From Longimicrobium sp. (GTDB lineage Bacteria > Gemmatimonadota > Gemmatimonadetes > Longimicrobiales > Longimicrobiaceae), in NCBI GenBank assembly GCA_036389795.1, contig DASVWD010000118.1:1-44266 (forward strand): a DNA stretch of 44,266 bases, given 5' to 3'. The notes under the pieces were generated by a model. It was not told where the DNA came from. It saw only the letters and a list, made by a program, of their open reading frames with translations, and searched no databases. Positions 27,789 to 43,102 of this stretch are shown piece after piece (the first letter of the stretch is position 1; every line of letters begins with the position of its first letter). The position numbers were made by a program, and so were the translations under genes.

Positions 27789-28183
27789 CGCACCGCCAGA
27801 ACATCTCCAGCGGCGCCCCGTGGGAGCCGATCGTGGGCTACTCGCGGGCGGTGCGCGTGGGGCCGCACGTGCACGTGGCCGGCACCACCGCCATCGGGCC
27901 GGACGGCACGCTGGTGGGCAGGGGCGACGCGTACGCGCAGGCGGTGCAGGCGCTCAAGAACATCCAGGCGGCGCTGGAGAAGGCCGGCGCGCGGCTGGAA
28001 GACGTGGTGCGCACCCGCACCTTCGTCACCGACATCTCGCAGTGGGAGGCCGTGGGCCGCGCGCACGGCGAGTTCTTCCGAGACGTCCGCCCCGCCGCCA
28101 CCATGGTCGAGGTCACCGCCCTCATCGACCCCGACATGCTGGTGGAGATCGAGGCGGACGCGTACGTCGTCGGGGAAGGCTGA
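27785..28183 (+). CDS. RidA/YjgF/YER057c family protein
   Basis: A 132-residue member of the RidA family, trimeric enzymes that hydrolyse reactive enamine/imine intermediates of amino-acid metabolism. Visible features are [20 protein letters not shown] at the start, [13 protein letters not shown], the segment [11 protein letters not shown], and the C-terminal [20 protein letters not shown]. RidA proteins use an arginine near residue 105; here the region before MVEVTAL has an Arg ([11 protein letters not shown]), which fits. The ATG overlaps the preceding stop as ATGA, with GGGGTG upstream. Last gene of its operon, followed by a hairpin repeat. Confidence 0.92.
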
Positions 28184-28212
28184 TCTCCTACCGAATCCGG
28201 CAAAAGACTTTA

Positions 28213-28277
28213 CCTCACGCAGAGTCAGCAGAGTCAACGGAGAGGTCCTCTGCTGACTCTGCTGACTCTGCGTGAGG
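28213..28277. repeat. Inverted repeat, CGCAGAG family, copy 3
   Basis: A 65-bp palindrome, arms about 30 nt with two mismatches, from CCTCACGCAGAGTCAGCAGA to its mirror. It lies between converging genes, 29 nt behind the RidA stop; T-rich sequence follows on both strands (TGTTTTCC one way, TAAAGTCTTTTG the other), so it could terminate in both directions. Confidence 0.85.
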
Positions 28278-28339
28278 CTTTGGTGTTTTCCGGACCTGGT
28301 GTCATATCAGCCGGTACGGAACAAAGGATGGAACGTGAC

Positions 28340-28373: not shown

Positions 28374-31016
28374 TCACTCCACCCTCGCGCCGGCAGCGCG
28401 GCGCACCGCCACCGTGCGCTCCAGCTCGTCTCTCGCCTGGAGCACCTTGCGGCGGATGTCGGGGGGGAGGTCGGCGCGCTCGGCGAGGAAGCGGTCGACG
28501 ATCGCCAGCGCCTCGGCGCTCGTGTGCCCGCCGGCGAAGGCGTTGATCCAGCGCGGGAGGAAGAAGATGCGGCGGTTGTCGCGGATCCACTGCAGCCGGT
28601 CGAGCGCCGGGCGCAGGTAGCCACGGGTGAGCGCCGCGTGCGCGGGGTCGTTGAAGGCGCCGAGCGACGCCGTCACCCACTCCTCGTTGAGCCGCGGGTC
28701 GTCCAGGTAGCGGCGGAAGTACGCCTCCTTGGCCGCCGGGTCGCGCTCGGCCGCGCCCGCCACGAACGCCCGCCGCTCGGCCTCGGGGGTGGAGTCGCGC
28801 GCCACCTCGGCCCGGTAGAGCGCCATCGCGTCGGGCTCGGCGAGCGAGACGAGGCGCTGCACGATGCTCCAGCGCGTGGGCTGCTTCACCGCCCCGCCGT
28901 CGAAGGGGCGCGTGCCGGCCAGGTACCCGCGCAGCACGGCGCGGGCGGCCGGGGTGCGCGCCGTCTCCACCAGCGCGTCCAGGCTGGCCTTGCGCATCCC
29001 GTACGGCAGCGCCGCGTCCGAGGCCCGCCTGGCCAGCAGCTCCTCCCAGGCGGGGAAGAGCCGCGCGGCGTCGGCGTCGGCCGCGTAGCGGGTGAGCGCG
29101 GTGGCCGCGCGGTCCAGGATAGTCGCGGCGATCTGCTCGTCGCGCTCGCGCGGCAGCTCGCGCAGGGCGAGCTCGGCGAAGCGCGCGGGCGGCAGCTCCG
29201 TCTCGCGCACCCGGTCCCACAGCGCCCCCCAGAGCATCGCCCGCAGCAGGTCGTCCTCCACCTGGCCGACGTGCTCCTCCAGGTACGCGGCGCTCCGGTC
29301 GTCCGGCAGGAAGAGCCCGTAGCCGTAGTCGCCGTCGTTCGCCCACACGTAGTCGGGCGCGGGGAGCCCCGCCGCGCCGCCCACCTCCGTCGCCTCGCCG
29401 GTGAGGGAGACGGTGAGCACCACGTCGTCGCGGTCCGCATAGGCCAGGCGCACGCGCACCTGCATCGGCCACCAGCCGCCGGGGTCGCCGGGGAGCGCGC
29501 GCGCCGGGCGCTGGGCCAGGGTGAGCCGGCGGATTCTCCCGCCGTCGGTCTCCAGGCGCGTGTCGACGCGCGGCATCCCGGCGCGCAGAATGTACTGCTC
29601 GCCGAAGGCATTGAGCGACCTTCCCGACGTCTCCTCCAGCGCCGCCAGCAGGTCGCGCCAGGTGGCGTTGGCGTAGGCGTGGCGGGTGAGGAAGAGGTGC
29701 AGCCCCGCGCGGAACGCCGAGTCGCCCACCAGGAAGTCGAGCTGCTTGAGGACCGAGGGCGCCTTGTTGTAGACGATCGGCCCGTAGTTGCTCTTCGCCA
29801 GGTCCAGGTTGGCCAGCTCCTGCCACACGGGCGTGGTCCCCGAGGTGGCGTCGACCCCGTACGCCAGCGGCTTGTTGCGCAGGAAGAAGGTCTTCCACGC
29901 GCCGGTGCCGGGGCGCAGCTCGTCCTGCATCTTCGCCGCCATGTAGGTGGCGAAGCCCTCCTTGAGCCAGAGGTCGTCGAACCACTCCATGGTCACCAGG
30001 TCGCCGAACCACTGGTGGGCCACCTCGTGGAAGATGGTGGCGTCGCGCCCCAGCTTCTGCGGCAGGGTGGGCGGCTCGCGGAAGACGAAGCCGCTCTCGT
30101 TGTAGAAGATGGCCCCCACGTGCTCCATCCCCCCGAACGGGAAGGCGGGCGCCAGCAGCAGGTCGGCCTTCCGGAACGGGAAGTCCACGCCGAACCAGCG
30201 CTCCAGCCAGCGCACCGCCTGGGCGTTGGTGGCCAGCAGCGTGTCGGCGTCCACCTCGCCGCGGCGCGAGGCGCGGCCGTAGAGCGTCATCGGCACGCGG
30301 TCGGCGGCCGGCGGGGCCCACGCCGTCCACGGCCCCGCGGCGAAGGCGGCCAGGTAGGTGGAGATCGGCTCCGTCTCGGCGAAGCGCCAGGCGACGGCGC
30401 CGCGGGCGGAGTCGCTCGCCTCCACCGGCCCGTTGGCGACCACCGTCCACCCGGCGGGCGCGGTCAGCCGCATGCGGAAGCGGGCCTTGAGGTCGGGCTG
30501 GTCGAAGCAGGGGAAGAGCTGGTTGGCGTCGGAGGGGACCAGGAGCGTGTAGAGGTAGCGCGACCCGTCCGTGCTGTCGTCGTAGCGGATGATGGACGCC
30601 CCGGCCGCCGCGATCTTCGCCCGGAAGTCGACCTCCACCGTGTTGGCGCCGGTGCGCAGCCACCCGGCGGGGATGCGCAGGTGCCCGTTCTCCCACGCGT
30701 GGTCGCGCACCTCCGCCCCGTTCGCCCGCACGCCGCCGAGCCAGGGGCCGCGGAAGTCCAGCACCAGGTCGCCCGCGCCGGCTTTGCGCTCGAAGGCGAT
30801 GCGGACGGAGCCGGGCGCCGTGTCGCGCTGGGTGAGGTCGAGCGCCAGCTCGTAGCGCACGCCGGAGAGCGTGGCCGCGCGCGTGCGCGCCAGCTCCAGG
30901 GAGATGCCGGGCTGCATCAGCCGATCGGGGCCGGGTGTGGGGGGCGACTGGGCCGCCGCGCCGCCGGCCAGCAGCAGCGCGGCGGCGCAGAGGCTCGCGA
31001 GTCTGGCGCAGCTCAT
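28374..31016 (-). CDS. Secreted M1-family aminopeptidase
   Basis: An 880-residue zinc metallopeptidase with a signal peptide (cleavage near AAAQ at 20-23). Zinc ligands and catalytic residues are HEVAHQWFG (His330, Glu331, His334) and Glu353 in LKEGFATY. The exopeptidase motif usually written GxMEN reads FGGMEHVG at 294-301, with His in place of Asn. The catalytic tyrosine is probably in NYGPIVYNK. A long helical C-terminal domain (about 600-870) matches the ERAP/PepN type. It would cut N-terminal residues from peptides in the periplasm. AGGACG precedes the ATG at 31016. It lies directly downstream of the array of plug-like proteins and on the same strand. Confidence 0.93.
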   Translation of the reverse strand: MSCARLASLCAAALLLAGGAAAQSPPTPGPDRLMQPGISLELARTRAATLSGVRYELALDLTQRDTAPGSVRIAFERKAGAGDLVLDFRGPWLGGVRANGAEVRDHAWENGHLRIPAGWLRTGANTVEVDFRAKIAAAGASIIRYDDSTDGSRYLYTLLVPSDANQLFPCFDQPDLKARFRMRLTAPAGWTVVANGPVEASDSARGAVAWRFAETEPISTYLAAFAAGPWTAWAPPAADRVPMTLYGRASRRGEVDADTLLATNAQAVRWLERWFGVDFPFRKADLLLAPAFPFGGMEHVGAIFYNESGFVFREPPTLPQKLGRDATIFHEVAHQWFGDLVTMEWFDDLWLKEGFATYMAAKMQDELRPGTGAWKTFFLRNKPLAYGVDATSGTTPVWQELANLDLAKSNYGPIVYNKAPSVLKQLDFLVGDSAFRAGLHLFLTRHAYANATWRDLLAALEETSGRSLNAFGEQYILRAGMPRVDTRLETDGGRIRRLTLAQRPARALPGDPGGWWPMQVRVRLAYADRDDVVLTVSLTGEATEVGGAAGLPAPDYVWANDGDYGYGLFLPDDRSAAYLEEHVGQVEDDLLRAMLWGALWDRVRETELPPARFAELALRELPRERDEQIAATILDRAATALTRYAADADAARLFPAWEELLARRASDAALPYGMRKASLDALVETARTPAARAVLRGYLAGTRPFDGGAVKQPTRWSIVQRLVSLAEPDAMALYRAEVARDSTPEAERRAFVAGAAERDPAAKEAYFRRYLDDPRLNEEWVTASLGAFNDPAHAALTRGYLRPALDRLQWIRDNRRIFFLPRWINAFAGGHTSAEALAIVDRFLAERADLPPDIRRKVLQARDELERTVAVRRAAGARVE

Positions 31017-31153
31017 GGGCGTCCTCGGTCGAGCATCACAGGTGCCACGGGTGGAAGCCCCGAATCTGGAGCCTCCACCCGTGGGACGGCAACCACAGGG
31101 GAACGGCAGGGGGACAGGGGATAGGGAACAGGGGACAGCCTGCACGACTTCTA

Positions 31154-31176
31154 CGCACTTCCGCACTCACGCACTC
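31154..31176. repeat. CGCACT repeat overlapping a stop codon
   Basis: Three CGCACT cores at 31154, 31162 and 31170, here 8 nt apart. On the coding strand the gene ends ...AGTGCGTGAGTGCGG, so the repeat itself supplies the last two codons and the stop of the gene at 31167. Confidence 0.6.
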
Positions 31177-31955
31177 CCCGACGGGAGCAGCCAGAGCACC
31201 ACGGCGGCGCAGGTGGGGAGGGCGCCGGATGCCCCGGCGCGGAAGCGGGGCGGCACCTCGTCGGCGCCGTAGGCCTCCACCGCGTCCACCCGCGCGGGGT
31301 CGATGCGGTCGAGCTCCGCGGCGGGGCGGAGCACTCCGTCCACCCAGAGCGCGGCCCGGCAGCGGCGGCCGTCCTCCAGCGCCGGGACGGTGAGCTCCAG
31401 CCCGCCCGCCGCGGGGCGGGCGACCTCCAGCCCCAGCAGGCCGCGCAGCTTCTCCGCCGTCCCGGCGCCGCGCCGCTCCGCGAACGTCTCGGCGGCGAGG
31501 AACGCGCCGACGCCCTCGCGCCGCCGGGCGAAGTACCCTTCGTCGATCAGGCGGCGCTCGCGCGCGGCTTCGGCCTCGTCCCAGAGCGGCGGGGCGGGCA
31601 CCAGCACCACGCTGTCCCTCGCCGGCGCCGGCTCGGCCCGCAGGTGCAGGCTCAGCCGCACGTTGGTGCCGATGTCGGCCGGGAGCGTCACCGGCATCGA
31701 GCGCAGCACGCCGTCCGCCCCCCGCGCCTGGATCTCGTAGCGGCCGTTCCCCGGCGCCTGCAGGCGGAAGACCCCGCGCGCGCTCGTGGCGGTGCTGTCG
31801 ACCACCGTCCCCGCGGTGTCGAGCAGCACCACGGGGATGTGCGCCAGCGGCCGGCCGTCGTCGCCCACGAGCTGGCCCCGGAGCGGCTGCGCCCCCAGCG
31901 GCGCGGCGGCGAGCACGGCGGCGAGGAGCGGGAGGAGGAAGCGGATCGGGCGCAT
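31167..31955 (-). CDS. Secreted carboxypeptidase-regulatory/plug-like protein, array member 1
   Basis: A 262-residue exported protein, the most diverged of the array. The signal peptide ends in AAPLGAQ. Residues about 25-105 are a carboxypeptidase-regulatory-like beta-sandwich (LRGQLVGDDGRPLAHIPVVL, DTAGTVVDS). The C-terminal part corresponds to the TonB plug of outer-membrane receptors: GRRCRAALWVDG, ARVDAVEAYGADEVPPRF and TCAAVVLWL, where the other members have CGAVVxWLK. The two Cys are kept. No beta-barrel follows. AGGAC precedes the ATG at 31955. It is separated from the next member by a hairpin repeat, and the M1 peptidase gene follows 150 bp downstream. Confidence 0.8.
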   Translation of the reverse strand: MRPIRFLLPLLAAVLAAAPLGAQPLRGQLVGDDGRPLAHIPVVLLDTAGTVVDSTATSARGVFRLQAPGNGRYEIQARGADGVLRSMPVTLPADIGTNVRLSLHLRAEPAPARDSVVLVPAPPLWDEAEAARERRLIDEGYFARRREGVGAFLAAETFAERRGAGTAEKLRGLLGLEVARPAAGGLELTVPALEDGRRCRAALWVDGVLRPAAELDRIDPARVDAVEAYGADEVPPRFRAGASGALPTCAAVVLWLLPSGSA

Positions 31956-32029
31956 GGAAGTGTCCTGCAAGGGAAGGCCGCGGCCGGGGTACGACATCAA
32001 GGTAACGACGAGAGAAGAAAACATCAGGC

Positions 32030-32097
32030 CTCACGCAGAGACGCAGAGACGCGGAGAACCCCCGGCAGTTCTCCGCGTCTCCGCGTCTCTGCGTGAG
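32030..32097. repeat. Inverted repeat, CGCAGAG family, copy 4 (near perfect)
   Basis: Two 30-nt arms (32030-32059 and 32068-32097) with a single mismatch and an 8-nt loop; each arm contains CGCAGAGA units 8 nt apart. It begins 21 nt behind the stop of the gene at 32119. On the minus strand TGTTTTCTTC follows closely, so it should terminate transcription. Confidence 0.9.
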
Positions 32098-32118
32098 AAA
32101 AAGCCTTCGAGGCCTCGG

Positions 32119-32898
32119 TCAGGCCGCCGGCGTCTTGAGCCACACCACGACGGCGCCGCAGGGGGCGCGGCCGCCGCGGTTGACGGGGCTGAAGCGCAGC
32201 GGCACCTCGTGGCCGTCGTAGACCTCCACCGCCTCCACGATGCCGGGGCTGATCCCGTTCAGTACCTCGGCCGGCATCCGCACCCCGTCGATCCACAGCG
32301 ACACGGTGCACCGCCGCCCACCGCCGCCCTGGGTGAGCACCCAGCCGCTGGAGCCCGACGGCCGGGCGAAGATGCGGCGGATCCCCTCGAACCGGTCGAC
32401 GGTGCGCGCTCCCGGGAGGCGGGCGAACTGCTCGCCGGTCATGAACACCCCCGTCCCCACCTTCTGCCGGTCGTAGAAGCCCGCGTTGCGCAGGTAGCGC
32501 TGCTCCTCGGCGCCCACCACCACCAGCGGGGCGAGCGCCACCGCGCTGTCGCGCCGCGCGGCCGCGGCCACCCGGCCGGAGCGCGTGTACATCTGCACCC
32601 GCACGGGATCGCGCCCCTCCACCCGCACCTCGCCGGTGGCCACCACGTCGCCCGCCAGCTCCGCGCGCACGGTGTACGCGGCGGGCGCGGGCGCCTGCAG
32701 CTCGAACCAGCCGTCGCCGCGCGTCTGCGTGCGGCCCACCTCGCTCCCCGCCGAGTCGACCAGCACGATCGTGGCGCGCGCCACCGGATGCCGCGAGCGG
32801 CCGTTCAGGAGCACGCCGTTCAGCAGCAGCTGCGCGGAGAGCGGCGCCGCGGCCAGGAGCCCGGCCGCGCAGAGAAGGGAGAGAACGATGCGTCGCAT
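32119..32898 (-). CDS. Plug-like secreted protein, array member 2
   Basis: A 259-residue exported protein with the array layout: signal peptide (LLAAAPLSAQ), regulatory-like sandwich at about 24-105 (LLNGRSRHPVARATIVLVDS), hinge NAGFYDRQKVGTGVFMTGEQ at about 136-155, and plug-like C-terminus with GRRCTVSLWIDG, IVEAVEVYDGHEVPLRF and PCGAVVVWLK. It is most like member 3, from which it is separated by 24 bp, so both are likely co-transcribed. The ribosome-binding site is weak. Its 3' end carries a long hairpin repeat. Function unknown; the missing barrel excludes a normal receptor role. Confidence 0.82.
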   Translation of the reverse strand: MRRIVLSLLCAAGLLAAAPLSAQLLLNGVLLNGRSRHPVARATIVLVDSAGSEVGRTQTRGDGWFELQAPAPAAYTVRAELAGDVVATGEVRVEGRDPVRVQMYTRSGRVAAAARRDSAVALAPLVVVGAEEQRYLRNAGFYDRQKVGTGVFMTGEQFARLPGARTVDRFEGIRRIFARPSGSSGWVLTQGGGGRRCTVSLWIDGVRMPAEVLNGISPGIVEAVEVYDGHEVPLRFSPVNRGGRAPCGAVVVWLKTPAA

Positions 32899-32922
32899 GC
32901 GCTGTATCGGTGGATTGGAAGA

Positions 32923-33726
32923 TCAGGAGTTGACCGGCGCCTTGAGCCAGAACACCACGGCGCCGCAGGGCGGGATGCCGGCGCGGTTGACGGGGCTGAA
33001 GCGCAGCGGCACCTCGTCGCCGTCGTAGACCTCCACCGCCTCCACGTCTTCGGGGCGGATCTGGTTGAGCATGTTGGCCGCCATCTGCATCCCGTCGACC
33101 CACAGGGACACGATGCAGCGGCGGCTGCCGCGGTGCGCGGAGCCCTGCTGGTACAGGATCCAGCCGTTCGTCCCCGCCGGGCGCGCGAAGACCTGGCGCA
33201 GCCCCTGGACGCGGTCGATGATGCGCGCCCCCGGGCGCGTCATGAACTGCTCGCTGGTGAGGAAGACGCCGGTGCCCACCCGCTGCCGGTCGTAGAAGCC
33301 CGCATTGGTCAGGTAACGCCGCTGCGCCTCCGCCACCGCCTCCAGCGGATCCAGCCGGATGGCGCTGTCTCCGCGCGCGGCCGCGGCCAGGGAGGTCGTG
33401 CGGGTGAGCATCTCCACCTCCACCGTCTCCCCCGGCGGCAGCCGCACCGTGCCGGTCACCAGCAGGTCGCCCGCCAGCTCGGCGCGCACGCGGTACACCC
33501 CGGGCTCGGCCGCGCGCAGCCGGAAGCGCCCGTCCGCGCGGGTCTGCGCGCGCGACACCTGGCCGCCCGCCGAGTCCAGCAGCACCACCACGGCGCGCGA
33601 CACCGGCTGGCGGGTGCGGCCGTCCAGCAGCATGCCGTCGAGCTCCTGCGCGGCGAGCGGCGCGGCGGACGAGAGCAGCGTGGCGGACGCGAGCGCGGAG
33701 AGGAGGAGTGTCGGGGTGCGGCGCAT
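32923..33726 (-). CDS. Plug-like secreted protein, array member 3
   Basis: A 267-residue exported protein: signal peptide ending APLAAQ, sandwich with LDGRTRQPVSRAVVVLLDSA, hinge NAGFYDRQRVGTGVFLTSEQ, then SRRCIVSLWVDG, DVEAVEVYDGDEVPLRFSPV and PCGAVVFWLK. Close relative of member 2 (both have VPLRFSPVNR before the final Cys). Only weak ribosome-binding signals precede the ATG at 33726. Confidence 0.82.
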   Translation of the reverse strand: MRRTPTLLLSALASATLLSSAAPLAAQELDGMLLDGRTRQPVSRAVVVLLDSAGGQVSRAQTRADGRFRLRAAEPGVYRVRAELAGDLLVTGTVRLPPGETVEVEMLTRTTSLAAAARGDSAIRLDPLEAVAEAQRRYLTNAGFYDRQRVGTGVFLTSEQFMTRPGARIIDRVQGLRQVFARPAGTNGWILYQQGSAHRGSRRCIVSLWVDGMQMAANMLNQIRPEDVEAVEVYDGDEVPLRFSPVNRAGIPPCGAVVFWLKAPVNS

Positions 33727-33822
33727 CGGGGGAGTCCCGTCGGGTGGGGTGGAGGGATCGCCAGGGCCCTTTCGCCTTCAACGTCTTCCGCCGGCCGATC
33801 CGGACGCGGGGCCCGGTCCCGC

Positions 33823-34641
33823 TCAGCCCTGCGGCCGCTTGAGCCAGAACACCACGGCGCCGCAGAGGTCGCCGTCGCGGGCCCTGCGCGGCGCGAGCCT
33901 CCGGGCGTGCACGTCCAGCGGCTCCATGAGGGGGACGAACCGCATCGGGATCTCGCGGCCGTCGTAGACCTCCACGGCCTCCACGTCCTCGGCGCGGATG
34001 TCGTTCAGCACCTCCTCCGTGCGGGGGAGCCCGTCCACCCAGATCGACACCCGGCAGCGGCCGCCCATGCGGCGCTGCAGGAGCACGTAGCTGTTGGCGC
34101 CCGCCGGGCGGTAGAAGATCCCCCGCAGCCCCTGCAGCGCGTCGATCGTGCGCGCCCCCGAGCGGGCCGCGAACTGCTCGCCGGTGAGGAAGACGCCGGT
34201 GCCCACCCGCTGCCGGTCATAGAAGCCCGCGTTGGTCAGGTAGCGCCGCTGCACCGCGGCGGTGGCCTCCAGCGGCTCCAGCGCGATCGCGCTGTCGCCC
34301 CGCGCCGCGGCGGTCAGCGGCCCCGCCTCCGTGCGCAGGTCGATCTGCACCGTTCCGCGCTCGCGGAGGAGCACCGTCCCCTCGGCCAGCCGCACGCCCT
34401 GCCGCTCGGCGCGCACCCGGTAGAGCCCGGCGCCCGCCGCCCGCAGGCGGAAGCGCCCGTCCGCGCGGGTCTCCATCGACGCGGCCACCCGCCCCGCCGA
34501 GTCCAGCAGCGCCACCGTGGCGCGGGAGACCGGCTCCGCGCTGCGCCCGTCCAGCAGCAGCCCGTCCACCACCTGCGCGGACGCGGCCGCCGGCGCGAGC
34601 AGCGCCGCGGCGGCCAGGGAGAGGCGAAGCTGTTTGCGCAT
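33823..34641 (-). CDS. Plug-like secreted protein, array member 4
   Basis: A 272-residue exported protein: signal peptide (LSLAAAALLAPAAASAQ), sandwich with LLDGRSAEPVSRATVALLDS, hinge NAGFYDRQRVGTGVFLTGEQ, then GGRCRVSIWVDG, DVEAVEVYDGREIPMRFVPL and LCGAVVFWLK. A 20-residue basic insertion (LDVHARRLAPRRARDGD) precedes the last Cys. It pairs best with member 5 (both share IDAL-GLRGIFYR). The ATG at 34641 is chosen because the signal peptide starts there; the frame is open further upstream into the next gene. Confidence 0.82.
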   Translation of the reverse strand: MRKQLRLSLAAAALLAPAAASAQVVDGLLLDGRSAEPVSRATVALLDSAGRVAASMETRADGRFRLRAAGAGLYRVRAERQGVRLAEGTVLLRERGTVQIDLRTEAGPLTAAARGDSAIALEPLEATAAVQRRYLTNAGFYDRQRVGTGVFLTGEQFAARSGARTIDALQGLRGIFYRPAGANSYVLLQRRMGGRCRVSIWVDGLPRTEEVLNDIRAEDVEAVEVYDGREIPMRFVPLMEPLDVHARRLAPRRARDGDLCGAVVFWLKRPQG

Positions 34642-34721
34642 TTCGATCCGAGGGAGAAAAATCTGCGGCTTCATCCGCGGGCCGGACGACCACCACGCCG
34701 GATTCGGCGGCAGCGCCGGCG

Positions 34722-35510
34722 TCAGCGCTTCGGCGCCCTGAGCCAGAGGACGACGGCGCCGCACGTCGAGCCGCTGCTGGCGCGCGCGAGCGGGACGAAG
34801 CGCGGCGGCACCTCGCTGCCGTTGTAGACCTCCACGGCCTCCACGTCCTCGGCCTCGAGGTCGTCGAGCACCTCGGGGTCGCGCTGCAGCCCGTCGATCC
34901 AGAGCGACACCCGGCAGCGGCCGCCGAAGCGGTGCTGGTAGATGACGTAGCTGCTGCCGTGCACGGCGTTGGCGGGCTCGTGCCGGTAGAAGATCCCGCG
35001 CAGGCCGCCCAGCGCGTCGATCACGCGCGCGCCGCCGCGGGCCGCGAACTGCTCGCCGGTGAGGAAGACGCCGCTGTTGAAGCGCTGCCGGTCGTAGAAG
35101 CCCGCGTTCACCAGGCGCCGCCGCTGCACCGCCGCGGTGGCCTCCAGCGGCTCCAGGGCCACCGCGCTGTCGCCGCTCGCCGCCGCCGCCAACCGCCCCG
35201 CGGAGCGCAGGTCGATCTGCACCGTCCCGCGCTCGCCGAGCACCACCATCCCCTCGGCCAGCGCCGCGCCCCCGCTCTCGGCGCGCACGCGGTAGAGCCC
35301 CGCCGCGCCGCGCAGGCGGAAGCGGCCGTCCGCGCGCGTCACCTGGCTGGCCACCGTGCGCCCGGCCGAGTCCACCAGCGCCACCGTGGCGCGGGGGATC
35401 GGCGCGCCGCTGCGCCCGTCCAGCAGCACCCCGTCCACCACCTGCGCCGCGGCGCCCGCGGGGACGAGGAGCGCGGCAGCCATCAGCCAGCCGCGAAGGT
35501 GTCTCAGCAT
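34722..35510 (-). CDS. Plug-like secreted protein, array member 5
   Basis: A 262-residue exported protein: signal peptide ending PAGAAAQ, sandwich with LLDGRSGAPIPRATVALVDS, hinge NAGFYDRQRFNSGVFLTGEQ (VGTG changed to FNSG), then GGRCRVSLWIDG, DVEAVEVYNGSEVPPRFVPL and TCGAVVLWLR. Close relative of member 4, which suggests a recent duplication. Upstream lies a long heptamer repeat that separates it from member 6. Confidence 0.82.
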   Translation of the reverse strand: MLRHLRGWLMAAALLVPAGAAAQVVDGVLLDGRSGAPIPRATVALVDSAGRTVASQVTRADGRFRLRGAAGLYRVRAESGGAALAEGMVVLGERGTVQIDLRSAGRLAAAASGDSAVALEPLEATAAVQRRRLVNAGFYDRQRFNSGVFLTGEQFAARGGARVIDALGGLRGIFYRHEPANAVHGSSYVIYQHRFGGRCRVSLWIDGLQRDPEVLDDLEAEDVEAVEVYNGSEVPPRFVPLARASSGSTCGAVVLWLRAPKR

Positions 35511-35606
35511 CCAGGCTCGACTCAGAAAAGGCCGCGCATCACCGGCATCCGTCAGAAACGAATGGATCGACCCCGTCCGGACACGCTTGGACAAACCGCA
35601 GTGCGT

Positions 35607-35720
35607 TAGTGCTCAGTCCCTAGTGCTTTAGGGTTGGCACTGAGGACCTAAGGACTAAGGACTAAGGACTAAGCACTAAGCACTAAGCACTTAGCACTCA
35701 GGACCCGGCACTCAGCACTC
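35607..35720. repeat. Long heptamer tract TAAGGAC/TAAGCAC with hairpin
   Basis: From 35649 at least ten 7-nt units run in register: three TAAGGAC, three TAAGCAC, then TTAGCAC, TCAGGAC, CCGGCAC and TCAGCAC. The tract stops three bases from the stop codon of member 6 (35724). Before it, 35612-35644 folds as nested stems CTCAGT/ACTGAG and CCCTA/TAGGG. This is the longest member of the stop-codon heptamer family here. Confidence 0.85.
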
Positions 35721-35723
35721 CCC

Positions 35724-37697
35724 TCACGGAATCGGCGTCTTCAGCCACACCACCACCGCGCCGCAGACGGTGCCGTTGCCCGCGTTGCGCACCGCGTTGG
35801 GGACCGCGACGTCCTGGAGCCCGGCGGCCGGGTCCTCCCGGTTGCGCCGCTCCGGGTCGGTCATGGACTGCCCGCCCATCTCCGAGTTGGCGACGGCGAA
35901 GCGCATCGGCACCTCGTCGCCGCTGTAGACCTCCACGGCCTCCACGTCGTCGGGATCGATCCGCTCCAGCTCCTTCACCGGCCGCTGCATGCCGTCCACC
36001 CACAGGAGCGCCACGCAGCGCCGCCCGAAGCGGTACTGGTAGAACGTCCAGTCGCCCTCCCCCCACCGCTGCTGCGGGGTGGGCCGGGCGTAGATGCCGC
36101 GCAGCCCCTGCAGCATGTCGAGCACCCGCGCGCCGGGGCGTCGCTTGAACTGCTCGCCGGTCAGGAAGGCGCCCGTCCCCACCCGCTGCCGGTCGTAGAA
36201 GCCCGCGTTGTTCAGCCGCCGCTGGGTGGCCGCCGCCGTGGCCACCAGCGGGCGCAGGCGGATGGCGCTGTCCGAGGCCGCGCTGGCGGCGGCCACCTGC
36301 TGGCGCGGCCGCCCCATCGACAGCGCCACCGTCTCCACCCGGCCGCGCTTCAGCTCCACCTCGACGGGGGTGGGCACCAGGATCAGCGAGTCGGCGCGCG
36401 GGTGCGAGAAGCTGACGGCGTAGCGCCCGTCGGGGACGTTCTCCAGCCGGAACGCGCCCGCCGAGTCGGTGACGGCGATGTGCTCGGTGCCCACCAGGAA
36501 CACCGTGGCCTCCGCCAGCCCCCGCGCCCGCGTGCTGTCGTAGACCACGCCGCTCACCGCCGCCCCGCCCGCCGGCTGCTCGGCGATCACCACCTGCGAC
36601 GCCGTCCGGAGCCCCGTCACCTCCGCCCCGTCCTCCTTCACGGCCACCAGGCCGACGGCGGACTGCGAGCGCAGGTTCTGCGCGTCGGGGGCGGCGGTGC
36701 CCATCACCGGCATGCGGATGTGGAAGCGGCGGACGAACCACACCCCGTCGGGCTGGCGGTCGAACTCCAGCCGGCCGCCCCAGGCGTGGCGCACCACTTC
36801 GCCGCGCGCCCCCCACCGGGTGCGGTCGACGTCCTGCTGCGGCACCTGCACGCGCGTGTACTCGAAGTCGAGCGACTTCAGCTCCGCCGTCTTCTCGTCC
36901 AGCCACAGCACGCCCTGGATGTCCGGCAGCCGGCGCCCGCGCACCGGCTCGAACGCCAGCCCCAGCAGCCCCGGCTTCTCCGCGTCGCGGTGCAGGCGGA
37001 AGCAGTGCCCGTCCAGGAACGGCTCCGAGAGCAGCACCTCGGCGTCGGGCGCGTAGTAGACCATCTCGCGCCCGTCGCGCTGCACGTACCCCTGCTCGGC
37101 CAGCCGGTCGGCCGGGAGCGAGCGGAAGGGGGTCACCTGCTGCATCCGGGCCGTGCGGGCCTGCTCGCGCTTGACGGTGAGCGAGGCGGCGTCCATCTCG
37201 CGGCTGTAGGTGCGCACGGTGAAGACGCGCGGCTCGTAGCGGCGCGTCCACTCGGCCGCCGTGAGCGCCTTGCGCGCCTCCTCCCACACCGTGGCCACCC
37301 GCGCCTCCGCGTCGGGGCGCACGCTGCACGCGCGCTCGCCCGCCTGCGCCACGATCCCCTCCAGCTGCACCACCTCGCCCTTCGCCAGCAGCTCGAACGG
37401 CTTCGTCTCCCCCAGCCCCAGCTCGATCGGGGTGGACACGGTGGCCACGCGCCCCACCCGCTCGGCGCGCACCCGGTACGTCCCCTGTTCCTGCGCCCGC
37501 AGCGTGAACTTCCCGTCGGGACGGGTCTGCGTGGTGGCGACCGGCTTCCCCGCGCTGTCCAGGAGCGACACCATGGCGCGGGAGACGGGGGCGCGGGTCG
37601 ACTCTTCCAGCAGCACCCCGTCCACGGTCTGCGCCGCGAGCGGGCGGCCGCAGCAGAGCGCCGCGGCGGCGAGGAGAAAGGTTCTTGCGTGGCGCAC
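35724..37697 (-). CDS. Large plug-like secreted protein, array member 6
   Basis: A 657-residue exported protein. After the signal peptide (GRPLAAQ) comes a sandwich domain (LLEESTRAPVSRAMVSLLDS), then a middle domain of about 230 residues opening with ACSVRPDAEARVATVWEEAR and containing SEPFLDGHCFRL and GVLWLDEKTAELKSLDFEYT, then a second sandwich (VSGVVYDSTRARGLAEATVF) and the plug-like end with NAGFYDRQRVGTGAFLTGEQ, GRRCVALLWVDG, DVEAVEVYSGDEVPMRF and VCGAVVVWLK. Before the last Cys is a 40-residue insertion. The start is GTG at 37697 with GAGG nine bases upstream. The middle domain is shared only with member 7 and is not recognised. Confidence 0.82.
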   Translation of the reverse strand: MRHARTFLLAAAALCCGRPLAAQTVDGVLLEESTRAPVSRAMVSLLDSAGKPVATTQTRPDGKFTLRAQEQGTYRVRAERVGRVATVSTPIELGLGETKPFELLAKGEVVQLEGIVAQAGERACSVRPDAEARVATVWEEARKALTAAEWTRRYEPRVFTVRTYSREMDAASLTVKREQARTARMQQVTPFRSLPADRLAEQGYVQRDGREMVYYAPDAEVLLSEPFLDGHCFRLHRDAEKPGLLGLAFEPVRGRRLPDIQGVLWLDEKTAELKSLDFEYTRVQVPQQDVDRTRWGARGEVVRHAWGGRLEFDRQPDGVWFVRRFHIRMPVMGTAAPDAQNLRSQSAVGLVAVKEDGAEVTGLRTASQVVIAEQPAGGAAVSGVVYDSTRARGLAEATVFLVGTEHIAVTDSAGAFRLENVPDGRYAVSFSHPRADSLILVPTPVEVELKRGRVETVALSMGRPRQQVAAASAASDSAIRLRPLVATAAATQRRLNNAGFYDRQRVGTGAFLTGEQFKRRPGARVLDMLQGLRGIYARPTPQQRWGEGDWTFYQYRFGRRCVALLWVDGMQRPVKELERIDPDDVEAVEVYSGDEVPMRFAVANSEMGGQSMTDPERRNREDPAAGLQDVAVPNAVRNAGNGTVCGAVVVWLKTPIP

Positions 37698-37848
37698 GAT
37701 CTTGCCTCGGTGAGGGAGAGGGGACGAAAGCACCTGCGTGGCATCGGGATAGGGACCGCGTGGGACGACAAACGTGCGTGTGGCGGCGTCTCGCGTCAAC
37801 CGCGAGCCGTCACCCCGAACGTCGTCCACGAACCGCAACTGCTTTCGT

Positions 37849-37928
37849 CTCACGCAGAGCCGGCAGAGTCAGCAGAACACATCACCCGACGCGGTTCCCT
37901 CCCGTTGACTCCGCTGACTCCGCGTGAG
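37849..37928. repeat. Inverted repeat, CGCAGAG family, copy 5
   Basis: Imperfect palindrome with a long central loop, from CTCACGCAGAGCCGGCAGAG to CTCCGCTGACTCCGCGTGAG. It lies 15 nt behind the stop codon of the gene remnant at 37944, the same distance as in intact genes. Confidence 0.75.
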
Positions 37929-37943
37929 TCCAGGCCGTTCGGG

Positions 37944-38041
37944 TCAGCTTGCCGGCTGCTTCAGCCAGACCACCACGCCGCCGCAGGGCCGGCCGTCGGC
38001 GCCGGCTCCCCGAGCCGGGGCGCGAGCCGCGCGGGCGCGTG
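37944..38041 (-). pseudogene. Coding tail of a lost plug-like paralogue
   Basis: Directly behind the stop codon of member 7, in another frame, the minus strand encodes RPCGGVVVWLKQPAS followed by TGA. This is the typical end of the array proteins (CGAVVxWLKxPA). Upstream of it the frame runs into member 7 and has no further similarity. It is followed by a hairpin repeat at the normal distance. Most likely the body of an eighth paralogue was removed or replaced by recombination and only the last 15-30 codons and the 3' element stayed. Confidence 0.72.
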
Positions 38042-39871
38042 TCACGGCTGGTTCGACGGCTTGGTCCAGATCACCAGCGCGCCGCAGTTCCAGTCGTCGC
38101 TGTAGTAGGGGTTGAAGCGTCCCGGGATCTCGTAGCCGCGGTAGAGCTCCACCGCCTCCACCTCGTCCACGGTGAGCCGGTTGAGGATCTGGTTGGACTC
38201 CTGCCGCCCGTCCACGAAGAGCGCGTAGTAGCAGCGCGTCCCGCGGTACGGCCGGTAGAGGGAGAACGCCTCGGAGGTGTGGGGCTCCACGTAGATGCCG
38301 CCCATCGCCATGATGCGGTCGAGCAGGCGCGCCCCTGGGAGCCTGGCGAACTCCTCGTGGGTGAGGTGCTTCCCGAAGCCGAGCCGGCGGCGGTCGTAGA
38401 AGCCGTACCGCTCCAGGCGCGGCCGCACCGGCTCGCCCACCGCCTCCACCGCGCGGAGCGCGATGGCGCCCCCCGGCTCGGCCGCCGCCGCCACCGGCCG
38501 GGGCGGCCGGCCCAGCGCCAGGTGCACCGTCTCCGCGCCCCGCGGCGTCACCTCCACCGGCAGCGAGGGCGCGGCCGTCGCCAGCTCCGCCGTGCGCGGG
38601 TGCTCGAAGGTGAGCACGTAGCGCCCCTCCGGCACCCCGGCGATCGTGAAGGCGCCCGCCGAGTCGGCGCGCGCTTCGTGCGCCGTCCCCGCCAGGAACA
38701 CCCGCGCCCCCACGAGCGGCGCGGCGCGCGTGCTGTCCCACACCACCCCCGCCACCACCGCGCCCGGTTCCGCCGCGAGGCCCGCCGGCGCCCCGTCGTC
38801 CGCCACCTCCACCACCTCGGCGCCGTCCTCCTTCACCGCCACCAGCCCCAGCTGCCTCCGGTGGTTCAGCAGGTTGCCGCCGTCGGGGCGCTCGTTCCCC
38901 ACCATCGGCATGAAGATGCGCCAGCGCCGCACGTACCAGGCGCCGTCGGGGAGCCGCGCGAACTCGATCCGCCCGCCCCACTCCACGCTCTGGCTCCGCG
39001 GGCCGATCCCCGTGTAGGCGTAGTCCACGTGCCGCAGCTCGGCGGAGCCCGCGTCCAGCCACAGCACCCCCTGCACGTCGGGGAGCCTGCGGCCGCGCAC
39101 CGGCTCGAACGCCAGCCCCAGCAGCTCGCCCCGGCGCTCCAGGCGGAAGCAGTGCGAGTCCAGGAACGCCTCCGAGAGCAGCACCTCCGCGTCGGGCGCG
39201 TAGAACACGTTCTCGGCGCCGTCGCGCCGCACGTAGCCGCCGTCGGCCAGCCGCTCGGCCGCCACGCTGCGGAACGGCGAGACCTGGCGCACCCGCGCGG
39301 GGCGCACGCTCTCGCGCAGCACGGTGAGCGAGGCCGGGTCCAGCTCGCGGCTGAACGCGCGCACCGTGAACACGCGCGGCTCGTTGCGGCGCGACCACTC
39401 GGCGGCCGCGAGCGCCTTGCGCGCCTCCTCCCACACCGCCGCCACCCGCGCCTCGCGGTCGGGGCGCACGCTGCACGCGCGCTCGCCCGCCTCCACCACC
39501 AGCGCGTCCAGCCGCACCGGCGCCTCGCGCGCCAGCAGCTCGAGCGCCACCGTCCGCCCCGCCTCCAGCGCGACCTCGTCCGAGACGGTGGCCGCCCTCC
39601 CCACCCGCTCCGCGCGCAGCCGGTACGTCCCCGCCGCCGGCGCGGTGAGCGTGAAGCGGCCGTCGGCGAGCGTCTGCGTCCCCGCCACCACGCGCCCCCC
39701 GGCGTCCAGGAGCGACACCATCGCCCGCGCCACCGGGGCGCGGCTCCCCTCCTCGCGCACCGTCCCCTCCACCGTCTGCGCCGCGGCGGGCGCGGCGAGG
39801 AGGAGGGCGCAGCAGGCGGCGGCGGAGCGGACGGCGGCGGTCGGGAGGCGCGGGGACGGGGCGTGGCGCAT
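38042..39871 (-). CDS. Large plug-like secreted protein, array member 7
   Basis: A 609-residue exported protein with the same domain order as member 6: signal peptide (APAAAQ), sandwich, a middle domain starting ACSVRPDREARVAAVWEEAR with SEAFLDSHCFRLE and GVLWLDAGSAELRHVDYAYT, second sandwich (VAGVVWDSTRAAPLVGARVF), and a diverged plug-like end: YGFYDRRRLGFGKHLTHEEF, GTRCYYALFVDG, EVEAVELYRGYEIPGRF and NCGALVIWTK. The final motif is closer to true TonB-receptor plugs than in the other members. GAGGTG lies eight bases before the ATG at 39871. It is the first gene of the array. Confidence 0.83.
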   Translation of the reverse strand: MRHAPSPRLPTAAVRSAAACCALLLAAPAAAQTVEGTVREEGSRAPVARAMVSLLDAGGRVVAGTQTLADGRFTLTAPAAGTYRLRAERVGRAATVSDEVALEAGRTVALELLAREAPVRLDALVVEAGERACSVRPDREARVAAVWEEARKALAAAEWSRRNEPRVFTVRAFSRELDPASLTVLRESVRPARVRQVSPFRSVAAERLADGGYVRRDGAENVFYAPDAEVLLSEAFLDSHCFRLERRGELLGLAFEPVRGRRLPDVQGVLWLDAGSAELRHVDYAYTGIGPRSQSVEWGGRIEFARLPDGAWYVRRWRIFMPMVGNERPDGGNLLNHRRQLGLVAVKEDGAEVVEVADDGAPAGLAAEPGAVVAGVVWDSTRAAPLVGARVFLAGTAHEARADSAGAFTIAGVPEGRYVLTFEHPRTAELATAAPSLPVEVTPRGAETVHLALGRPPRPVAAAAEPGGAIALRAVEAVGEPVRPRLERYGFYDRRRLGFGKHLTHEEFARLPGARLLDRIMAMGGIYVEPHTSEAFSLYRPYRGTRCYYALFVDGRQESNQILNRLTVDEVEAVELYRGYEIPGRFNPYYSDDWNCGALVIWTKPSNQP

Positions 39872-40108
39872 CGGCGGCACCTCGCGGGCGTGGGAGACGG
39901 GCGTCCCGGGAGTGGACGGAGGGAGGGCGCACCGCGTTGAACGTCTCCTGCAAACGAGTTGTGACGCGCCGGACGCCCTCCGCGCGGGATGGGCCAAGCC
40001 GCGCGTCCAACCCCGTCCCCGTTGCCGGCGTCCAAGAGTCCGCCGCGCACGCGCGGGCGCCGGACGCGGGTCCGGGGGCGGGCGGGGAGGCCGGCGGGGC
40101 GGAAACGG

Positions 40109-40137
40109 TTGCCGCCACGCCGATCCAGTGCTAAAAT
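40109..40137 (+). promoter_or_regulatory. Predicted promoter of the DUF5916 gene
   Basis: TTGCCG (40109-40114) and TAAAAT (40132-40137) are separated by 17 bp, the best sigma70-like match in the window. The transcript would start near 40144, giving a leader of about 67 nt. The rest of the gap 39872-40210 shows nothing else clear. Confidence 0.6.
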
Positions 40138-40210
40138 GGCAGCACTCTTACGCTTCGCTCACCCGCGTCCCGCTTCCCGCGCCACCCTTCCCCGAAGGCG
40201 AGAGCGACCG

Positions 40211-42925
40211 ATGTCTTCCACCGCGAAGCCCCGCCCGACCCTCCTCGCCGCGCTGGCCCTGCTCGCGTGCGGCGCGCTCGCCCCGGGGGCGGCCGCGGGG
40301 CAGGCGCACTCCGCCGGCCAGACCCCGCGCGTGCAGGCGGTGCCCCGCACCGGCGAGATCGAGCTGGACGGGAAGCTCGACGAGCCCGTGTGGCAGAGCG
40401 CCCCGCCGGCCACCGACTTCACGCAGCAGGACCCCAACGAGGGGAAGCCCGCCACCCAGCGCACCGAGATCCGCTTCGTCTACGACGACGAGGCGCTCTA
40501 CATCGGCGCCCGCATGTTCGATTCGCTGGGCGCGGCCGGCGTGCGCACCCGCCTGGCCCGGCGCGACCAGGACGTCGAGAGCGACAACGTGATGTTCGTC
40601 TTCGACACCTACCACGACCACACCGGGCGCACCATCATCCAGATCAACCCCTCGGGGGTGAAGTACGACGCCGGCCAGGCCTCGCCCTACGCCGACCCCT
40701 CGTGGGACCCGGTGTGGGCCGCCGACACCGGGGTCGACTCGCTGGGGTGGACGGCCGAGCTGCGCATCCCGCTCTCGCAGCTGCGCTTCCCGCGCGACTC
40801 GCTGCAGACCTGGGGGATGCAGATCTGGCGCTACGTCGAGCGGCTGAACGAGGTCTCGATGTGGTCGTTCTGGGGGAAGAACGAGTCGGGCGGTCCCGCG
40901 CGCTTCGGGCACCTGGAGGCGCTCCGGCTGCACGGCGGCGGCGGGCGGCGGGTGGAGCTCCTCCCCTACGTGGTGGCGCGCCGCTCGTACGAAGACCCCA
41001 GCGAGCCCGGCTCGCCCTTCGAGGACCGCGGCGAGAGCAGCATGCGCGTGGGCGCCGACGTCAAGGCGCTGCTCACCTCCACCTTGACGCTCGATGCCAC
41101 CATCAACCCCGACTTCGGGCAGGTGGAGGTGGACCCCGCGGTGGTGAACCTCTCCGACGTGGAGACCTTCTTCGAGGAGAAGCGCCCGTTCTTCGTGGAG
41201 GGGAGCGGCATCTTCGGCTTCGGCGACTTCAGCTGCTTCTTCTGCAGCAACGTCTCGTCGATGTCGCTCTTCTACTCGCGGCGCATCGGGCGGCGGCCGC
41301 AGGGGTTCGTGCGGCAGCCGGCCGCCTTCACCGATCTCCCCGACGCCAGCACCATCCTGGCCGCCGCCAAGATCACCGGCCGCACCGCCGGGGGGCTGCA
41401 GGTGGGGCTCCTGGACGCCTTCACCCGCCGCGCCGAGGCGCTCGCCATCTCGCCCGAGGGCGACCGCTTCAGCGAGGAGGTGGAGCCGGCCAGCAACTAC
41501 TTCGTGGGGCGCGTCAAGAAGAACTACCGCAACGGCAACCTCACCCTGGGACTGCTGGGCACCTCGGTGCTGCGCTCCTTCGACTCCGACGCGCTGGGCG
41601 ACTTCCTCCCCGGCCACGCCGAGGCGGTGGGCTTCGACTGGTTCAACTCCTGGAAGAAGCAGACCTACTCGTTCTTCGGCAACCTGGCCTTCAGCAACGT
41701 GGGCGGCGACTCGCTCTCCATCCTGCGCCTGCAGCGCTCCTCCGTGCGCTACTTCCAGCGCCCCGACCGCGACCACGGCGGCAACGGGCTCTTCTCCGAC
41801 CGCTTCGACCCCGGCCTCACCTCCCTGCGCGGCTTCGGCGGCTACGCGCGCCTGGCCAAGGACGCGGGGAGCTGGCTGTGGGAGACCGCGGTCAACTTCC
41901 GCAGCCCCGGCTTCGAGGTCAACGACCTGGCGTTCCTCTCGCGCGCCGACTACGTGTGGATGAACGCCAACGTGCTGCGCCAGTGGAACACCCCCACCCG
42001 CCGCTACCGCCGCTTCCTCTTCATCGTGGGCGGCCAGCAGCAGTACAACTTCGACGGCGACCTCACCGACCGGCAGGTGCACGGCTACCTGGGCGGCCAG
42101 TTCACCAACTACTGGAACTGGAGCACCTTCGTCATCGTGCGCCCCGAGCTCAACGACGACCGGCTCACCCGCGGCGGCCCGGTGGTGCGACGGGCGTCCT
42201 CCTGGAACTACTTCGTGAACCTGAGCACCGACTCGCGCAAGAAGGTGGTGCTCTCCACCAACCCCAGCGTCGGCCGCAACGCCGAGGGCGCCACCGGCTA
42301 CAGCGCCAACCTGAGCGTGCGGGTGAAGCCGGCGCCCAACATCGAGGTGTCGGCGGGCCCGGCGTTCAGCCACAACGAGAGCCGCGCGCAGTTCGTCACC
42401 GCCTTCGCCGACCCCGCGGCCGCCGAGTGGGGCGGCCGGCGGGTGGTGTTCAGCGACCTGTCGCAGAACACCCTGTCGATGAACACGCGGCTCAACTGGA
42501 CCTTCACGCCCACGCTCACGCTGGAGCTGTTCGCGCAGCCGCTGGTGGTGGCGGGCGACTTCGACCGCTTCAAGGAGTTCGCCGCCCCGCGCGAGCTGGA
42601 CAAGGTGGTGTACGACGCCACGCAGCTCACCCCGATCACGGGCGCGGACGGGCGCGTGGTGTCGTACTCGCTCGACGCCGACCGCGACGGCGACGAGGAC
42701 CTGCGCTTCGGCAACCCCGACTTCAACTTCCGGTCCTTGCGGGGCAACGCGGTGCTGCGCTGGGAGTACCGCCCCGGCTCCACGCTCTTCCTGGTGTGGC
42801 AGCAGGAGCGCAGCGTCACCGAGCCGTTCGGCGACTTCGCGCTCGGCCGCGACGGCGAAGCCGTCTTCGACGGCCGCCCCAACAACATCTTCGTCGTGAA
42901 GATGAGCTACTGGTTCGGCCGGTAG
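40211..42925 (+). CDS. DUF5916 outer-membrane protein with CBM9-like domain
   Basis: A 904-residue exported protein. After a signal peptide (about 1-30) comes a carbohydrate-binding family 9-like domain (about 40-240; IELDGKLDEPVWQSAPPATD, and YDDEALYIGARMFDS), then the DUF5916 region, a long series of amphipathic beta strands typical of an outer-membrane barrel, opening with TINPDFGQVEVDPAVVNLSD and EEKRPFFVEGSGIF. It ends with the aromatic FVVKMSYWFGR, as expected of barrels. Length is normal for the family. The ATG at 40211 has GAGAGCG upstream. It is divergent from the plug-like array, whose members lack a barrel; physical partnership is speculative. Confidence 0.92.
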   Translation: MSSTAKPRPTLLAALALLACGALAPGAAAGQAHSAGQTPRVQAVPRTGEIELDGKLDEPVWQSAPPATDFTQQDPNEGKPATQRTEIRFVYDDEALYIGARMFDSLGAAGVRTRLARRDQDVESDNVMFVFDTYHDHTGRTIIQINPSGVKYDAGQASPYADPSWDPVWAADTGVDSLGWTAELRIPLSQLRFPRDSLQTWGMQIWRYVERLNEVSMWSFWGKNESGGPARFGHLEALRLHGGGGRRVELLPYVVARRSYEDPSEPGSPFEDRGESSMRVGADVKALLTSTLTLDATINPDFGQVEVDPAVVNLSDVETFFEEKRPFFVEGSGIFGFGDFSCFFCSNVSSMSLFYSRRIGRRPQGFVRQPAAFTDLPDASTILAAAKITGRTAGGLQVGLLDAFTRRAEALAISPEGDRFSEEVEPASNYFVGRVKKNYRNGNLTLGLLGTSVLRSFDSDALGDFLPGHAEAVGFDWFNSWKKQTYSFFGNLAFSNVGGDSLSILRLQRSSVRYFQRPDRDHGGNGLFSDRFDPGLTSLRGFGGYARLAKDAGSWLWETAVNFRSPGFEVNDLAFLSRADYVWMNANVLRQWNTPTRRYRRFLFIVGGQQQYNFDGDLTDRQVHGYLGGQFTNYWNWSTFVIVRPELNDDRLTRGGPVVRRASSWNYFVNLSTDSRKKVVLSTNPSVGRNAEGATGYSANLSVRVKPAPNIEVSAGPAFSHNESRAQFVTAFADPAAAEWGGRRVVFSDLSQNTLSMNTRLNWTFTPTLTLELFAQPLVVAGDFDRFKEFAAPRELDKVVYDATQLTPITGADGRVVSYSLDADRDGDEDLRFGNPDFNFRSLRGNAVLRWEYRPGSTLFLVWQQERSVTEPFGDFALGRDGEAVFDGRPNNIFVVKMSYWFGR

Positions 42926-43009: not shown

Positions 43010-43063
43010 CTCACGCAGAGTCAGCAGAGAACTACTCCGCTGACTCTGCTGGCTCTGCGTGAG
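43010..43063. repeat. Inverted repeat, CGCAGAG family, copy 7
   Basis: Second palindrome in the same gap, from CTCACGCAGAGTCAGCAGAG to CTGGCTCTGCGTGAG. The plus-strand flank GTTTTGTTTTCCGG is T-rich and resembles that of copy 3. It suggests that two elements of different sub-types were stacked behind one gene. Confidence 0.8.
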
Positions 43064-43102
43064 GCCGCTGTTTTGTTTTCCGGATTTTATGGGGAATCGA
43101 AG

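Follow-up and report, generated by a model that had tools for sequence, protein, structure and literature searches.

The seven consecutive minus-strand genes at 31167-39871 of the window (the whole stretch of DNA analysed, 44,266 nucleotides from Longimicrobium sp.) each encode the N-terminal half of an Oar/SusC-type transporter, the part that faces the periplasm; the chain ends where the barrel should begin. The array appears to be a local tandem expansion of a secreted, barrel-less TonB-receptor plug family in the Gemmatimonadota, whose members we call solo plugs. The explanation that we prefer, and hold tentatively, is that these proteins act as disulfide-stabilised, soluble periplasmic partners of TonB. 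To our knowledge, plugs have been studied almost only inside barrels.

A preliminary description of this DNA had reported the seven genes, and all their open reading frames are indeed intact. The best-placed starts are at 31955, 32898, 33726, 34641, 35510, 37697 and 39871, and the features are as follows.

31167..31955, minus strand: gene A; signal peptide, CarboxypepD_reg and plug module 31170-31592
32119..32898, minus strand: gene B; signal peptide, CarboxypepD_reg and plug module 32122-32544
32923..33726, minus strand: gene C; signal peptide, CarboxypepD_reg and plug module 32926-33363, with Cys204 and Cys254
33823..34641, minus strand: gene D; signal peptide, CarboxypepD_reg and plug module 33826-34290
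34722..35510, minus strand: gene E; signal peptide, CarboxypepD_reg and plug module 34725-35165
35724..37697, minus strand: gene F, with a GTG start; signal peptide, CarboxypepD_reg, middle region, second CarboxypepD_reg and plug module 35727-36266
36543..37340, minus strand: middle region of F, without a Pfam match over cut-off; common to G and to relatives elsewhere
38042..39871, minus strand: gene G; signal peptide, CarboxypepD_reg, middle region, second CarboxypepD_reg and plug module 38045-38467
38753..39487, minus strand: middle region of G

The gaps between genes range from 24 to about 345 bases, and no Rfam match was found in the array region. The array is flanked by genes for a DUF5916 protein (39989-42925) and an M1 aminopeptidase (28374-31166). 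All seven proteins have a signal peptide, judged by eye, with an AxA-Q-like end, and in all seven the CarboxypepD_reg sandwich scores over the Pfam cut-off. The simple layout first described, a sandwich followed by a plug, holds for A-E but not for F and G (657 and 609 residues), which carry the extra middle region and a second sandwich. The middle region comprises some 250 residues, starts with GERACSVRP in both proteins, and is common to other long relatives in other genomes. The motifs originally quoted stand as a consensus but not as fixed strings, since they drift, most in A and G; in A, the most diverged member, CAAVV replaces CGAVV and the TonB-box-like segment is gone. Both of the cysteines said to be kept were found in all seven proteins.

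Is the C-terminal module a true TonB-receptor plug? The claim of a plug domain without a barrel is borne out by profile, fold and Pfam evidence. When a profile of the module alone, built from 47 sequences, was compared with the PDB, accepting matches with E up to 0.1, all 29 matches were TonB-dependent transporters, Cir, PirA, PfeA, BtuB, FepA and TbpA among them. The N-terminal halves of B. theta XusA (9gbc, E 1.5e-22), RagA and SusC are covered in full by a profile of sandwich plus plug. The AlphaFold model of the gene C protein has a pLDDT of 85.4. Because Foldseek and VIA searches with the whole protein retrieved only the transthyretin-like sandwich domain and were uninformative for the plug, the plug of C was modelled alone (AF2, pLDDT 88.7). 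With this model, transporter plugs filled the 50 best Foldseek places (best E 4.4e-5, TM about 0.5), and VIA gave Z up to 8.5 over 109 residues, to FyuA. The predicted fold is thus plug-like; at TM about 0.5 and Z no higher than 8.5, the model comparisons show a plug fold plus real divergence. Against Pfam Plug (PF07715, cut-off 23.9 bits) short solo-plug relatives score 34-47 bits and eight fusions of plug and TonB_C, described below, 35-54 bits. The array lies near the cut-off, with D at 24.7 and F at 24.3 in the genome scan and at 23.0 and 20.2, respectively, in the protein scan; in the latter, C-F are borderline, and A, B and G match weakly or not at all, with no match for A and G. We conclude that identification of the module as a true plug is strongly supported.

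If the plugs are real, might they be what is left of transporters that have lost their barrels and are becoming pseudogenes? Truncated transporters are known in Xanthomonas (PMC1790865) and Anabaena (PMC2771747), and gene A is strongly diverged. However, the seven frames are intact and the members are not pseudogenes. The plug match ends 1-5 residues from the stop codon in all seven, and no barrel is encoded in frame downstream, where the next gene is that for the M1 peptidase. Nearly all members of the family end their chain at the same point, and throughout the phylum the family is a single clade with invariant residues of its own. This reading is largely refuted, and we regard it as extremely improbable.

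On a FastTree phylogeny with the cysteine columns removed, a split with support 0.86 sets 138 barrel-less plugs apart from 11 transporter plugs. The window members and their same-genus relatives form one clade (0.989), within which A-F are mutually nearest and again one clade (0.935), while G falls with the short arrays found in two related genomes (0.967). Long nucleotide copies within the array are 60-82% identical and in register; with the A-F clade, this places the paralogy of the array beyond chance. Long and short architectures are interleaved on the tree. The middle region was therefore probably gained or lost repeatedly. We set aside dN/dS among the seven as unreliable because of the extreme codon bias. 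Intergenic repeats lie in gaps around and inside the array, whose duplications they may have aided. Related copies, built on CTCACGCAGAG...CTCTGCGTGAG, lie at 28178-28312, 32030-32097, 37849-37930 and 43015-43065; the one between genes A and B is a 30-base inverted repeat (97%).

The earlier statement that no known system has such a run of barrel-less plugs proved too narrow, as most of the Gemmatimonadota genomes searched contain the family. With a single array protein as query, matches were found in 60 of 61 related genomes, some of them sandwich-only proteins or transporters. Counted as Pfam or profile matches rather than as curated genes, in genomes that are partly metagenome-assembled, clear solo plugs number 11 by plug profile in the window's genome, seven of them in the array, and 5-19 in each of six single-contig genomes, beside 12-39 transporters. 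In a genome of another class the plug profile matched only weakly, at the level of a transporter. In a public scan the named loci with relatives were Gemmatimonadota, save one 'uncultured bacterium', and a plasmid search outside the phylum returned no solo plug, its only matches being a Bacteroidota transporter and a Priestia sandwich protein. Other genomes also have small tandem arrays: adjacent solo-plug pairs less than 3 kb apart number 15, against 0.6 expected, and one genome has a run of five, the seven of the present array being the longest run seen. One solo plug elsewhere (L015:1501-2235) has a C-terminal hydrophobic segment that resembles a membrane anchor. No plug-only protein family was found described in the open-licence literature, and the solo plugs are apparently a large, uncharacterised family of the Gemmatimonadota.

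How might a plug stay folded outside a barrel? The isolated FepA plug behaved as unfolded (PMC11658791), so a plug without its barrel would need stabilising. Both cysteines of the pair are present in 93 of 93 solo plugs, and in none of 11 transporter plugs. In a wider set, 131 sequences have both, nine TonB_C fusions have neither, and the sole sequence with one is a fragment with an unaligned end. Mapped on the tree (those columns removed), the pair changes three times, each time as a unit. In the AlphaFold model of C, the two residues lie at the starts of predicted strands (203-210 and 255-261). Joint presence and joint loss, our main evidence, point to a disulfide. Fusions that lack both plug cysteines include L105, L106, L109, L112 and L116 (among L096-L120). 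Such loss in some fusions suggests that the fused domain can stand in for the disulfide.

The fusions bear directly on function. The first case was a relative whose 122-residue tail is a TonB C-terminal domain. Among 245 genomes of the class searched, 46 matches in 36 genomes, all of one family, run through plug and TonB_C in a single open frame. This family is the Gemmatimonadaceae by a matched record, that of genome G090, and is not the window's own. All eight fusions tested exceed the Pfam cut-offs for CarboxypepD_reg, Plug and TonB_C. On the tree the fusions form one clade (0.978), the lone non-fused member of which is cut by the edge of its locus. A TonB-box-like LxxVxV occurs in 63 of 93 solo plugs and 8 of 11 transporters, always at the position of the transporters' box; at any other nearby offset it never occurs in more than five solo plugs. 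In the AlphaFold model the segment lies inside a low-confidence, flexible linker. Taken together, fusions and box position assign the solo plug to the Ton system, in the fusion family at any rate. The fusions also favour a TonB role, near to the 'receptor competitor' idea of the preliminary description, over ligand binding; the suggestion of variable surface parts found no support.

What of the array itself? TonB_C (PF03544) is absent from all seven proteins. The strict TonB-box pattern is present only in B (LAPLVVVGA), and the segment is degenerate in most of the others (LEPLEATA in D and E) and lost in A. The same N-terminal part of M. xanthus Oar binds TonB1 in a two-hybrid test (PMC6434023), and work cited in PMC12204202 implicates the sandwich domain in the interaction with TonB in B. 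theta. The window's genome contains 29 barrel matches, all on contigs other than that of the array, and 14 TonB_C matches, three of which lie within 6 kb (C285:135475-140914). The array proteins may bind TonB. On the other hand, the plug scaffold could have been reused for something apart from TonB, for instance to scaffold protein-protein contacts or the cell wall in the periplasm, with the TonB_C fusions as one specialised branch. The degenerate box in most array members fits such reuse, as do the large middle region and second sandwich of F and G, the absence of a fixed gene neighbour and the location of most solo plugs away from transporters. Since the box-like position is nonetheless kept in 63 of 93 relatives and the fusion is conserved over 36 genomes, we consider reuse unlikely.

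Do the neighbouring genes identify a partner? On the co-occurrence with barrel proteins that had been proposed as a check, 8 of 51 solo loci lie within 5 kb of a transporter gene, where 3.4 are expected (p 0.02), a weak enrichment; there is no constant barrel neighbour. Among 98 genes neighbouring solo plugs we found no constant partner; seven encode transporters, five sigma-70 factors and three gamma-glutamyltranspeptidase. This bears on the proposal that the proteins are soluble, periplasmic and ligand-binding, the plug taking up a nutrient or metal complex to hand it on or to sense it. The isolated FepA plug does bind ferric enterobactin, with an affinity some 100-fold below that of the receptor (PMC11658791), and the number of paralogues would suit many ligands. 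Conserved transport or enzyme genes are, however, missing among those 98, no ligand motif was found, and transporters bind also through barrel loops, which are absent here; ligand binding seems to us quite unlikely.

Still less probable, indeed very unlikely, is that the array proteins are trans-acting corks, each of which stops up, from the periplasmic side, an outer-membrane pore made by another protein, in the way that the T9SS Plug closes SprA (PMC7463736). A constant barrel neighbour is wanting. Three barrels of the same genome have no Pfam plug match, yet on reading each has a plug-like stretch between sandwich and barrel. The related idea of trans-plugs for plugless barrels was dropped because of these stretches, there being no plugless barrel found for the array proteins to fill.

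We return to the reading of the solo plugs as TonB partners. The plug would be released into the periplasm, as its signal peptide suggests, and kept folded without a barrel by the disulfide. It would bind the TonB C-terminal domain via CarboxypepD_reg and, where kept, the TonB-box-like linker; once bound, it may adapt, buffer or compete for the TonB access of the real transporters. In the fusion family a TonB C-terminal domain has been joined to the same chain. The paralogues of the array would differ in partner or in regulation. By mimicking the TonB-facing half of a receptor, a solo plug could thus serve as TonB partner, adaptor or decoy, a role that we infer from sequence. A broader proposal, which we think doubtful, is that the Ton system of the Gemmatimonadota has a soluble arm that works without barrels, made up of solo plugs and fusions: the disulfide-stabilised receptor mimics would gate the transporters' access to TonB, and the fused form would be a periplasmic relay or a self-docked TonB.

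A natural barrel-less plug family with its own cysteine pair puts a soluble plug at the disposal of structural studies and of work on TonB binding; the fusion of plug and TonB_C provides a covalently joined receptor-TonB pair for structure solution. Plug-only annotations in the Gemmatimonadota are not to be taken for broken transporters.

How do the solo plugs compare with known systems? They resemble Oar/SusC-type transporters in their two N-terminal domains, which follow the same order and are joined by a TonB-box-like linker, and the profile match is full-length; the CarboxypepD_reg extension of the Oar-like subclass is present in all seven array proteins. They differ in having no C-terminal 22-strand barrel, in the cysteine pair, and in the signatures GFYxR, EVYxG..vP.qF and CGvivIWTR, which are absent from transporter plugs. 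The truncated TonB receptors, such as Anabaena all2620 (PMC2771747) and the Xanthomonas Ps-TBDRs (PMC1790865), also have a plug without a full barrel, but they are broken or split transporters, whereas the solo plugs are a separate clade with intact frames. The T9SS Plug of the SprA complex is, by its description, likewise a periplasmic 'plug' protein apart from its barrel (PMC7463736), although it is part of another secretion system. To proteins with a TonB C-terminal domain (PF03544) the likeness lies in the relatives of one family, which have TonB_C after the plug; the array members have none. The fusions start with a signal-peptide-like segment and a sandwich, whereas the usual TonB starts with an anchor and a proline-rich spacer.
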